DNA of 64,000 nt from Povalibacter uvarum. GTDB lineage: Bacteria; Pseudomonadota; Gammaproteobacteria; Steroidobacterales; Steroidobacteraceae. This document shows positions 1 through 64,000 of this stretch, one piece after another (position 1 is the stretch's first letter; every line of letters begins with the position of its first letter). The translations under genes and the position numbers were made by a program. The stretch covers positions 1,059,018 to 1,123,017 of the forward strand of contig NZ_JACHHZ010000002.1 in the NCBI RefSeq assembly GCF_014202975.1. Reading direction: 5' to 3'. The notes under the pieces are model-generated. The model did not search any database, was not told the DNA's origin, and saw nothing but the letters and a program-made list of their open reading frames with translations.

Positions 1-91
1 CGGGTGACGGGTGACGGGTGACGGGTGACGGGTGACGGGTGACGGGTGACGGGTGACGGGTGACGGGTGACGGGTGACGGGTGACGGGTGA
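1..91. repeat. 13-copy tandem 7-mer CGGGTGA
   Basis: Thirteen perfect copies of the heptamer CGGGTGA run from the window edge to base 91, followed by CGGGGAAGAATGC and the start codon of the first acetyltransferase. The array is cut by the window edge, so its full length and any complementary right arm are unseen. It has the same 7-bp period as the GATAGCG array near 31.5 kb and ends right at a purine-rich ribosome-binding region. Confidence 0.95.
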
Positions 92-104
92 CGGGGAAGA
101 ATGC

Positions 105-593
105 ATGACGACGCCAGAGTTCCAGATCCGCCGCGCGACCGTGGCCGATGTGCCGACGATCCTGTCGCTCATCCGCGAGCTCGCGGACTTTGAGCGCCTC
201 TCGCATGAGTGCGTGGCGACGGAAGCGCTGCTGGAGGAATCGCTGTTCGGCCCGCGACCGGGAGCCGAAGTGGTCATAGGCCAGCTCGGTAGCGAAGTCG
301 TCGGCTTCGCGTTGTTCTTCCCGAACTTCTCCACGTTCCTCGGCCGGCCCGGCCTGTATCTCGAAGACCTGTTCGTCCGGCCGAAGTATCGCGGCCAGGG
401 CTATGGCGAACATCTGCTGCGCCACCTAGCCAGCATCTGCGTCGAACGCGACTACGGCCGCCTCGAATGGTCCGTGCTGGACTGGAATCAGCGTGCAATC
501 GATTTCTACAAGTCGCTCGGCGCGCAGCCGATGGACGAGTGGACCGTGTTCCGGGTCACCGGCGATGCGCTGACCAAGCTAGGGTCTCAGTGA
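105..593 (+). CDS. GNAT acetyltransferase, thialysine/diamine acetyltransferase-like
   Basis: A 162-residue GCN5-related N-acetyltransferase that would transfer acetyl from acetyl-CoA to a small amine. The acetyl-CoA pyrophosphate loop RGQGYG is preceded by the segment LYLEDLFVRPKY, and the C-terminal segment WNQRAIDFYKSLGA is the usual GNAT helix. The run NFSTFLGRPGLYLEDLFV matches the spermidine/spermine (SSAT) and thialysine acetyltransferase subgroup as I know it, so an amine or thialysine substrate is likely but inferred. I chose ATG at 105 because GGGGAAG lies just upstream; an in-frame start at 81 would translate part of the CGGGTGA array. It is monocistronic, followed by a 120-bp gap that holds a long inverted repeat. 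Confidence 0.85.
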   Translation: MTTPEFQIRRATVADVPTILSLIRELADFERLSHECVATEALLEESLFGPRPGAEVVIGQLGSEVVGFALFFPNFSTFLGRPGLYLEDLFVRPKYRGQGYGEHLLRHLASICVERDYGRLEWSVLDWNQRAIDFYKSLGAQPMDEWTVFRVTGDALTKLGSQ

Positions 594-609
594 GAGACAG
601 ATTCAGAGG

Positions 610-701
610 TTTCACACGGAGTTCACGCAGAGCACGGAGATTGGAAAGTAGTCGCTCCGAGCAGTTCTGACCTCCGTGCCCTCCGCGAAATCCGTGTGAA
701 A
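610..701. repeat. Long inverted repeat, TTTCACACGGAG family, copy 1
   Basis: The left arm (610-639) and right arm (672-701) are reverse complements at 26 of 30 positions, separated by 32 bases. It fills the gap between the two acetyltransferase genes and can form a long RNA hairpin. The left arm matches the left arm of the element at 60270-60301 with about three differences in 31 bases, so this is a dispersed family. Confidence 0.9.
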
Positions 702-715
702 TTCCAGCTCTTCCT

Positions 716-1189
716 ATGCAAATCCGCGCCGCCACGCCCGCTGATCTCGGTGTCCTGATCGAGCTGATGCGCGGCTACTACCGGGACGACGGGCTCGGGT
801 TCGACGCTGAAGAATCGGGCGCGGTGATGGCCCGGCTGCTGAATGAGCCGCAATGGGGCCGGGTCTGGCTCGGCGAAGTGGACGGCGGGGCCGTTGGATA
901 CGTCGCGCTCTGCATCGGCTTCAGTCTCGAGCTCGGCGGCAACGACGCATTCGTCGATGAAGTCTTTGTCCTGCCCGATCACCGCGGCCGCGGGTATGGC
1001 CGCCAGCTCGTGGAATTCCTCATCGCGCGCGCCGGGGAACTCAACATCCGCGCTCTGCATCTCGAAGTCGACCAGGCCAACACTGCGGCGCAGCAGCTAT
1101 ACGAGTCGCTGGGGTTCAGGAAGAGGGATCGCTATTTCCTGATGACACACCTCCCTGATTCACATCCCCTATCGCCCCCCATCGGTTAG
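716..1189 (+). CDS. GNAT family N-acetyltransferase
   Basis: A 157-residue GNAT protein. The acetyl-CoA loop is HRGRGYGRQL, preceded by the acidic strand FVDEVFVLPD, and the C-terminal helix NTAAQQLYESLGF is present. The substrate cannot be read from the sequence. The length is normal for a single-domain GNAT. It is not closely similar to the upstream acetyltransferase, so the pair does not look like a recent duplication. The gene starts 15 bases after the right arm of the inverted repeat at 610-701, so a transcript reading in from upstream would carry the hairpin in its 5' leader. Confidence 0.8.
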   Translation: MQIRAATPADLGVLIELMRGYYRDDGLGFDAEESGAVMARLLNEPQWGRVWLGEVDGGAVGYVALCIGFSLELGGNDAFVDEVFVLPDHRGRGYGRQLVEFLIARAGELNIRALHLEVDQANTAAQQLYESLGFRKRDRYFLMTHLPDSHPLSPPIG

Positions 1190-63018: not shown

Positions 63019-63257
63019 TGGAAAATCCCCGAAGTTGTTATAGCGCCTGATGCGCTTTCGCCTGGGGGATGTCTGCCGCCGATCGAGCGCGCACACAGCC
63101 CGCATCGAAACCCGCACCTCCATGCGACACAGGCGGCATTGCCCGAATCGCAACGGGACGCGAGCCGCAGCGTTGCCGCACGCAACGGTTGAGTGAAACT
63201 TGCGGGAACTGATCGCGGCTCGCGCAATCGTCGCGACTGACGCTACTCCTGCGATTC

Positions 63258-63273
63258 TGTGAATTCAATCACA
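63258..63273. promoter_or_regulatory. Consensus CRP-type site TGTGA-N6-TCACA
   Basis: TGTGA and TCACA with a 6-base spacer, a perfect match to the enterobacterial CRP core. It lies 240 bases upstream of the protease start codon and about 165 after the hemF stop, so regulation of the protease through a distal site is possible. A CRP/Vfr/Clp-type regulator would be needed. Confidence 0.55.
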
Positions 63274-63282
63274 TTAAAGGGC

Positions 63283-63296
63283 GTTGCAAATGCAAC
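63283..63296. promoter_or_regulatory. Short palindrome GTTGCA-AA-TGCAAC
   Basis: Six-base arms around AA, ten bases from the CRP-like site, in the protease upstream region. It is a candidate operator only; no regulator is assigned. Confidence 0.35.
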
Positions 63297-63437
63297 GGAG
63301 GCGACCGCGAGAGTCGTGCGAGCTTGTATACAGACGAAGCCGCGAGCGAGGAAGCTACGAGCAGTGAGCCGGACGAAGAAAGCAGGCGGATGCGGCCATA
63401 CGTCGGTGCGCGTGAACCTGCGAACGATCGAGCAGCA

Positions 63438-64000
63438 CTAACCTGCGCGCGATTCGGTTTCGCCGAGCCAGTTGCGAGGGCGGAGGAAGTCGGTGTAAAG
63501 CAAAGCTTCTGGGGTGCCTGGCTCGGGTTGCCAGTTGTATTCCCAGCGGGCGAGCGGCGGCAGTGACATGAGGATCGATTCGGTTCGTCCGCCGGACTGC
63601 AGGCCGAACGAAGTACCGCGGTCGTATACCAGATTGAATTCGACATAACGTCCGCGACGATACAACTGGAAGTTGCGCTCGCGATCGGACCACGGTGTTG
63701 CGCGTCGCCGCGCAACGATCGGCAGGTACGCATCGAGGAAGCTGTCGCCGACGCTGCGCTGGTAAGCGAAGCAGCGCTCGAAATCCCATTCGTTGAGGTC
63801 GTCGAAGAAGAGTCCGCCGACACCCCGGGTTTCGTTGCGATGCTTGAGGAAGAAGTATCGATCGCACCAGTCCTTGTGGTGTGAGTAGACGTCTTCACCG
63901 AACGGCGCGCACGCCTGCTGCGCGGTTCGATGCCAATGCACGACGTCTTCCATGAAAGGGTAGTACGGCGTGAGATCGAAACCGCCGCCGAACCACCACG
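63438..64000 (-). CDS. hemF: Coproporphyrinogen III oxidase, aerobic (partial, 5' end beyond the window)
   Basis: The C-terminal part of HemF, continuing to the window edge. The reading frame runs past the internal ATG at 63953: upstream codons give [20 protein letters not shown], the conserved block of HemF. Further blocks are [20 protein letters not shown], then [11 protein letters not shown] and [20 protein letters not shown]. The enzyme oxidatively decarboxylates coproporphyrinogen III with O2. The first complete codon in the window ends at base 63998. Another heme gene, hemB, lies 5 kb away on the same strand. Confidence 0.95.

Follow-up and report, generated by a model that had tools for sequence, protein, structure and literature searches.

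Heptad-word arms read outward from gene edges in Povalibacter uvarum, and at some orthologous junctions hairpin position outlasts the word

How can long inverted repeats keep their two arms complementary when the short words of which the arms are built differ between elements and between species? This question is raised by a 64,000-nucleotide stretch of the Povalibacter uvarum genome, hereafter the window (G000:C2:1059018-1123017, where G000 is this 6.32-Mb genome of 11 contigs and C2 is the contig). From its sequence, an initial annotation had described intergenic inverted repeats of iterated words with a common GCCAGA/TCTGGC apex, and had read the matching arms as a sign of coupled evolution. 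Our analysis shows that arms of heptad words tend to read outward from gene edges and, where paired, almost always face inward across intergenic gaps, that each genome has its own few dominant words, and that at some orthologous junctions the position of the hairpin outlasts its word. Array periods were counted in 800 kb of contig C2, array pairing and the tests of the initial claims cover 1.264 Mb of G000, and the comparison between species covers 14 genomes of the genus, G000 to G013, of which G007 is only 75% complete.

Requiring 13 matches in 14 positions, we found 31 lag-7 arrays in the 800 kb; 29 of them are intergenic, although intergenic DNA makes up only about 12%, and a second-order Markov copy of the 800 kb contained none. 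Under the same criterion lag 14 gave 27 arrays and lag 9 gave 7, the latter being the CACGGAG family, and lags 4-6, 8 and 10-13 gave at most 6 each. Inverted repeats with periodic arms, CACGGAG class included, numbered 48 in intergenic and 2 in coding DNA of the 1.264 Mb. The word-built intergenic inverted repeats are thus real, with a period of 7 far above chance. Their description as complementary pairs was likewise supported: neighbouring arrays faced inward in 42 cases, outward in 4 and lay in tandem in 3, with 90 arrays single. All 4 outward pairs consist of TAGC, a partly palindromic word. At least three of the listed singles (449368, 466080 and 56690) have partners that were dropped by the search pattern or the coding filter, and a few arrays appear twice, as TGGC singles and again under GCGGTT.

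A typical arm begins at a gene edge with 5-10 purine-rich nucleotides, continues with 3-5 heptads and ends in YC[AG]GA, as in AGAAG-GCGGTTA-GCGGTTG-GCGGTTG-GCGGTTA-GTTCAGA; most of the GAGC units listed follow the pattern GAGC-N-R-Y. After removal of overlapping duplicate arrays, a gene boundary was no more than 20 nt from the outer end in 71/139 arms (34/66 single, 37/73 paired) and from the inner end in 6/139 (6/66 single, 0/73 paired). Among the 71 gene-edge arms, 44 are at a stop and 27 at a start. The apex, defined as YC[AG]GA, stood at the inner end of 60/97 non-CACGGAG arms (34/45 paired, 26/52 single) and at the outer end of 4/97; it occurred in 5.3% of 5997 random intergenic 14-mers, so that the proposed common apex is well above chance frequency. 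It is strong in some word classes (GAGC 35/44, TGGC 7/7, GCGGTT 17/35) and weak or absent in others (GATAGC 1/11; CACGGAG 5/42, with the motif on the outer side in 13/42). Within the window, the elements at 31456 (right arm ...GGCAGAG) and 55658 (GTTGACG) lack it. All five places at which the initial annotation had located the apex were recovered, their limits shifted by no more than a few bases (27231-27359, 33740-33828, 52623-52764, 3980-4013 and 41813-41848), and its statement that each element uses a different word was too strong, since GAGC, TGGC and TAGC recur in the window.

The proposed coupling of the two arms fared worse. We compared partner arms with non-partner arms after cutting every arm without reference to its partner, using 5000 permutations. 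For GAGC (15 pairs, two of which share a right arm), partners scored 0.304 and non-partners 0.330, no partner was the best match (0/15), and 4702/5000 permutations reached the observed value; for GCGGTT (7 pairs), the values were 0.518 and 0.486, with 4/7 best matches and 818/5000 permutations. The two arms are therefore independent in these two families, and the partner excess that both had given in a first test vanished when the arms were cut independently of the palindrome alignment. Two orthologous pairs have also changed without compensation. At C2:337614, G000 and its relative G002 have orthologous TGGC arms on either side of a conserved stretch of ~170 nt; the right arm differs between the species at 6/49 columns and the left at 1/30, and species-crossed duplexes are nearly as stable as the species' own (-105.8 vs -108.0 kcal/mol, as sums). 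Between G010 and G003, the TGACT arms at one further junction (hslV-hslU, below) gave -61.3 kcal/mol crossed vs -63.7 kcal/mol own. In addition, each arm of the C2:234716 element has expanded its own version of the word, GAGCGAT x4 on the left and GAGCTAC x5 on the right. An excess of partner likeness was seen for CACGGAG (0.436 vs 0.348, 33/5000 permutations) and, weakly, for GATAGC (189/5000, n=4 pairs), and TGGC gave 0/5000 in the first test, which was biased in that arms were cut by palindrome alignment; independent cutting left only 2 TGGC pairs. These excesses would suit a pairwise process, template switching within the hairpin or compensatory selection, that keeps the arms matched; set against the two uncoupled families and the two uncompensated loci, we regard such a process as highly improbable. 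Template switching in particular is unlikely as the main process because partners are not more alike, changes are uncompensated and expansions belong to single arms; selection on an RNA hairpin is possible. Complementarity follows from both arms carrying the word of their genome.

Word use differs sharply between species, and each genome has a few dominant words. In the 14 genus genomes (bracketed numbers are control matches to the pattern read in reverse), GAGCNRY occurs 363 (7) times in G000, 21 (0) times in G002, 2 (1) times in G008 and not at all in the other 11 genomes, of which G012 and G011 have 12 and 2 control matches. GCGGTTR is found in G000 (359 (76)), G012 (281 (7)), G011 (107 (18)), G006 (40 (14)) and G007 (35 (2)), with lower counts in G003 (20 (4)), G010 (4 (1)) and G008 (1 (3)); it is absent from six genomes, the close relative G002 among them. 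TGACT words number 20 in G010, 18 in G012, 8 each in G003 and G007, 1 in G011 and 0 in nine genomes, with a control of 0. GATAGSS counts were 291 in G012, 82 in G000 and 7 in G007, against 230, 45 and 14 for a reversed pattern that is nearly cyclic and hence not a useful control. Across 369 genomes of the class, G000 included, 26 contained any GAGCNRY match and the highest count outside G000 was 33. A single RGC-containing unit behind all words was considered and dropped, being no better than chance in a hand calculation. As a separate observation, gaps of the same kind in G002 (L161-L167) are filled by other palindromes, namely CCCTCCTCCGCGAAGCGGGGGAGGG-type repetitive extragenic palindromes (REPs) and hairpins of a 9-nt CGCAAAG word.

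Does a hairpin keep its place while its word changes? The junction between the genes that we take to be hslV and hslU, going by protein sequence and length, N-terminus and gene order (as for gltB and gltD below), carries a full hairpin between stop and ATG in 7 of the 14 genus genomes, with six word types: GCGGTTR in G000, TGGC in G002, TGACT in G003 and G010, GGCTAC in G004, GGGCTCT in G007 and GATAGSS in G012. G013 has one TGGC arm only, and G001, G005, G006, G008, G009 and G011 have short gaps with no hairpin of words. In G000 the reading frame of hslV ends inside the left arm of the hairpin, where it finds its stop codon. Scanning of other gaps in G003 and G010 gave no array in 85 and 48 gaps, respectively. 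Outside the genus, 26 hslV-hslU loci (19 fully parsed, 7 not) included word hairpins in 2, at L317 and less clearly at L312. Downstream (3') of the window gene 51582-52622 the word is GAGC in G000, GGCAACA/GGCTACA in G002 and GATAGGC in G012, and there is no word element in G003, G006, G008 and G010 (the site was left unread in G001, G004, G011 and G013). Between gltB and gltD the word is GCGGTTR in G000 and GATAGGC in G012, and the other junctions read there are either short or filled with different sequence. These three sites were picked for being occupied in G000, and the G002 stretches for holding these genes. At element-free hslV-hslU junctions of G001 and G011 (L270, L272), a short perfect hairpin (GAAGAGTT...AACTCTTC) lies over the hslV stop. 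Its ends, GAAG/CTTC, are similar to those on the outer side of the long elements, for which it might be a seed.

A broader comparison of G000 with G002 took in 109 orthologous junctions. Words were present in both at 11, in G000 only at 18, in G002 only at 10 and in neither at 70 (Fisher p 0.0047; 0.012 without one false pair). A recount gave 10/15/6/78 (p 0.00025); it excludes a lone chance CGCAAAG 7-mer, still contains the false pair and adds a GGGCTAC/GGGCGAC word that was chosen after being sighted in G002. At 5 of the 11 shared junctions the words differ (330382, 362384, 449307, 466021, which is hslV-hslU, and window 52622). At C2:330382, the arm 6-7 nt past the stop consists of four GCGGTTR units in G000 vs four GGGCTAC units in G002. 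The likeness of the hslV-hslU loops of G000 and G002 was reached in 8/2000 shuffles, this being 1 of 21 pairs tested, and the loop may thus be common to the two species despite their different words. At some orthologous junctions, then, hairpin position outlasts the word, and the initial statement that complementarity is kept while words change can be seen directly at hslV-hslU, window 52622 and in the G000/G002 set.

Plain slippage could by itself make functionless period-7 intergenic arrays whose hairpins are accidental. Expansions of perfect copies in a single arm (GATAGCG, with 13.7 on the left vs 5.9 on the right; CGGGTGA, with 13.6) and the homogenisation of arms on their own are what it would produce, but it leaves unexplained the inward pairing (42 vs 3), the outward polarity from genes, the common apex, the genome-wide dialects and the excess co-occupancy of orthologous junctions. 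We therefore judge it quite unlikely as a full explanation.

Could the arms instead be mobile DNA of the REP/REPIN type, moved by REP-associated tyrosine transposases (RAYT) or by their TIRYT counterparts, with each word family the target of one transposase? A search for Y1_Tnp in 40 relatives and G000 gave matches, within the genus, in G000, G002, G005, G006, G009 and G012. One Y1 tyrosine transposase gene (G000:C7, L206) is flanked by inverted repeats at 945-973 and 1948-1976 with a GTGCCGGG head and a doubled 8-nt word. Flanking repeats of this build, the head being followed by, e.g., GCGGGTTCGCGGGTT, occur at several transposase genes, and several transposases of relatives (L207, L208, L209 and L217 among them) have the same head with different doubled words. 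The short gltB-gltD junctions in relatives and the hslV frame entering the left arm also look like insertion. Nevertheless, none of 26 transposase neighbourhoods contained a GCGGTT, GAGC, GATAGC, TGGC, TGACT, GGGCTAC, CACGGAG or GTTGACG array; flanking inverted repeats were listed for the 19 of these neighbourhoods with an open reading frame (ORF), and four of the other seven were viewed by ORF or sequence. G011, with 107 GCGGTT matches, has no Y1_Tnp match, and neither have G003, G007 (75% complete) and G010, all of which carry words, while G009 has two Y1_Tnp matches and no word inverted repeat in 100 kb. Loops differ by eye within one word family among the listed elements, and no GTAG/CGTC tag was seen by eye at listed word-arm starts. 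We consider transposase-driven movement unlikely and have rejected it as the driver of the words: the neighbourhoods examined lend such an origin no support, although there are Y1 transposases whose flanking terminal inverted repeats have their own doubled words. G000 is rich in CGTC-tagged REPs (CGTCATTCCCGCGAAAGCGGGAAT...; window 42663-42736 and ~53556-53618, and many in L031-L050); this type, reported at transposases in other species, was not among the flanking repeats listed for transposases. A DRT10-like reverse transcriptase that makes tandem repeats (PMC12632851) would be a further candidate source of arrays.

As RNA, the paired arms would form long hairpins. Folding of the gltB-gltD junction of G000 predicted a near-perfect stem (-89.7 kcal/mol over 187 nt, flanks included), and at hslV-hslU the sequences of seven species were predicted to fold into long stems, the weakest in G003. 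Neighbours of the 35 elements in the 800-kb sample, CACGGAG included, are co-directional in 19 cases, convergent in 8 and divergent in 8, and elements lie inside the likely operons gltB-gltD and hslV-hslU. That strong hairpins stand directly 3' of stop codons, and that 8/35 elements lie between convergent genes, recalls transcription terminators or attenuators at gene ends. This role is very unlikely given that 19/35 elements separate co-directional genes, that gltB-gltD and hslV-hslU are likely operon-internal, that no T-run was seen by eye on the flanks of the elements listed from this sample, and that 27/71 gene-edge arms adjoin start codons. The gltB-gltD hairpin could act as a bridge in G000 and G012, because a strong ribosome-binding site precedes it and the ATG follows it: this site is 138-140 nt upstream of gltD in G000 and G012 vs 10-11 nt in G001 and G003. 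Only 1/17 downstream genes adjacent to an element has a Shine-Dalgarno-like site before its ATG, vs 46% of 565 genes.

Taking these results together, we propose that gene-edge heptad arms are a dispersed, high-copy class of short repeats. In each arm a 7-nt word is repeated some 3-5 times and generally faces away from the start or stop codon, and GAGC, TGGC, TAGC and GCGGTT arms often end in YC[AG]GA. Where two facing gene edges have arms, a hairpin would form over whatever lies between them. Slippage of units would let arrays grow and homogenise, and arms at a gene edge would tend to adopt the dialect words of the genome; position could in this way outlast the word, and the same dialect word in both arms would give complementarity. 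The word may spread between dispersed arms by re-insertion at preferred gene edges or by conversion in place. Arms may be kept since their RNA folds into a compact hairpin that is tolerated in operons and brings the stop and the next AUG together; the hairpins may also protect or process mRNA, as thought for REPs. As to function, tolerance as hairpins inside operons would fit best. In its full form, with dialect words and tolerated hairpins, we give this account an even chance of being correct. A more specific version is possible yet doubtful, namely that gene-edge arms are re-worded in place genome-wide, a new heptad spreading by conversion or copying while hairpin positions stay; its best single cases are the stop-edge arm at C2:330382 and the possibly common hslV-hslU loop of G000 and G002.

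Several points weigh against the proposed account. About half of the arms are more than 20 nt from any predicted gene, and gene starts and stops are predictions of a home-made caller. In the CACGGAG class, partner arms show the excess likeness described above. The arms at C2:337614 do not form a compact stem, because some 170 nt, including a terminator-like hairpin, lie between them. As to bridging, a Shine-Dalgarno-like site was found upstream of the element in 11/17 cases, counted in a 26-nt window vs 19 nt (random 19-nt windows, 22%); hslU has no strong site even in the element-free G001, G008 and G011 and so would have no need of a bridge; and in G010 the gltD site lies 120 nt off with no word element present. 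The Shine-Dalgarno statistics are therefore suggestive only, and the bridging idea is only partly borne out.

How do these elements relate to known systems? The Correia/NEMIS elements of Neisseria are short inverted repeats near genes that are co-transcribed and cut by RNase III, and their copies have a common core. The word elements are likewise short inverted repeats near genes, but their loops look unrelated to each other. Closer counterparts are heptameric repeats. Rehm et al. 2015 (PMC4692102), who cite observations since 2007 that heptamers are over-represented in the intergenic DNA of bacteria, found no function for the GGGAATC / GGGGA(C/T)T repeats of Xanthomonas and Nostoc. As described there, the Xanthomonas repeats are tandem 7-nt units, mostly intergenic (here, 29/31 lag-7 arrays), that form convergent pairs (here, 42 inward against 4 outward, 3 tandem and 90 single) and lie near an ORF edge with the G-rich strand reading away from the gene (here, 71/139 outer against 6/139 inner ends). 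They belong to one word class, whereas several words are found here per genome, and an apex common to several words and a word that differs by species at one junction are features of our elements and not of theirs. The GGGAATC/GGGANTN word itself had 0 matches to GGGAATSGGGAATSGGGAATS in G000; genome G456 carries GGGAATC convergent pairs, of which four loci have other inner sequences and no YC[AG]GA apex. Because the geometry is the same, we regard the word elements as heptameric convergent repeats in kind, outside the GGGAATC family. G-quadruplexes are not a general explanation, because the GAGC, TGGC and GCGGTT words have no GGG or G-tracts. The TAACTGA repeats of marine Beggiatoaceae (MacGregor 2015, PMC4679880) are also intergenic heptamer arrays near start codons with a patchy distribution; they have one dominant word, and inverted pairs are very rare among them (Table 1 of that paper has one inverted set). 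REPs, REPINs and TIRtrons, as outlined in the relevant parts of Di Nocera et al. 2013 (PMC3733652) and of PMC3116915, are similar in being dispersed extragenic palindromes at or overlapping gene ends, in single and paired copies; the word arms are unlike them in that no GTAG/CGTC tag was seen and no cognate transposase was found, and in their tandem heptads and seemingly unique loops. The open-library text matches listed for the word sequences themselves looked, from titles and the starts of abstracts, like chance hits on other subjects. Judging by searches of the open library, what appears to be new is the use of several words per genome, the apex that words have in common, and the exchange of one word for another at a fixed junction.

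This genus offers a natural experiment, with 14 genomes, many words, and orthologous junctions of which some hold elements and others do not. The period of 7, the polarity from genes, the apex and the position tend to be conserved; the word is free. This suggests that long matched hairpins can persist without arm-by-arm co-evolution, and calls for caution with claims of RNA structure that are based on covariation. If true, in-place re-wording would mean that hundreds of unlinked short repeats evolve in concert and need no transposase to do so.

The window contains about 25 word-built arms, nearly all between predicted genes (table).

Table. Word-built arrays, arms and hairpins of the window, in window positions
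Positions	Strand	Element	Arms	Remarks
1..95	+	CGGGTGA array		13.6 perfect copies; no partner arm within the window; may extend past the window edge
610..701	.	CACGGAG-type (period 9) inverted pair	610-639, 672-701	related class without apex motif
3936..3963	+	TGGC arm, single		GGCCAGA at end
3980..4013	+	GAGC arm, single		end = GAGCCAGA; ATG shortly after
4436..4458	+	GCGGATA array		short, intergenic
13636..13664	+	GAGC arm		with CCAGA
13845..13928	.	GAGC hairpin	13845-13869 (+), 13887-13928 (-)
27231..27359	.	TAGC(C) hairpin	27231-27269, 27325-27359	apex CCAGA and TCTGG
27662..27745	.	CACGGGG-type pair	27662-27681, 27726-27745
31456..31665	.	GATAGCG element	left 31456-31551, right 31624-31665	GGCGGATAGG 10-nt array 31543-31583; 13.7 copies in left arm, 5.9 in right
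33740..33828	.	TGGC hairpin	33740-33767, 33811-33828	with CCAGA
41813..41848	+	GAGC arm, single		end = TAGCCAGAG; ATG directly after
42760..42780	-	TGGC arm, single		TCTGGCCAGTAGCC...
44098..44127	-	TAGC arm, single
45630..45751	.	GCGGTTR hairpin	45630-45675, 45706-45751	apex TTCGGA/TTCAGA; between gltB stop and gltD start, both genes on the - strand
50816..50855	+	TAGC arm, single
52623..52764	.	GAGC hairpin	52623-52655, 52709-52764	CCAGA/TCTGG; directly 3' of stop codon
55658..55742	.	GTTGACG hairpin	55658-55687, 55717-55742
58155..58191	+	GGGGCTTG/GGGCTCG-type arm, single
60270..60341	.	CACGGAG-type pair	60270-60299, 60314-60341
63344..63373	+	GAGC arm, single		degenerate; end = GAGCCGGA

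Strong imperfect inverted repeats (score >=44) are found in the window at 31511-31665, 42663-42736, 43997-44089 and 45630-45751, and two first-order Markov copies of it gave no inverted repeats scoring >=40. Those at 42663-42736 and 43997-44089 are ordinary REP-type palindromes and not word-built. An Rfam 15 scan of the window at the gathering score gave 0 matches. Among the best 80 gltD matches, many are from Verrucomicrobia (Opitutaceae near the top) or Cyanobacteria, and Steroidobacteraceae metagenome-assembled genomes are among the named relatives; the presence of Verrucomicrobia among the closest gltD relatives suggests gene exchange. Of additional note, three long arrays of G000 have no partner of equal length, at C2:511674-511734 (CAATGAG), C2:516508-516613 (GTTGACG) and window 1-95 (CGGGTGA); they point to recent slippage and are usable as strain markers.

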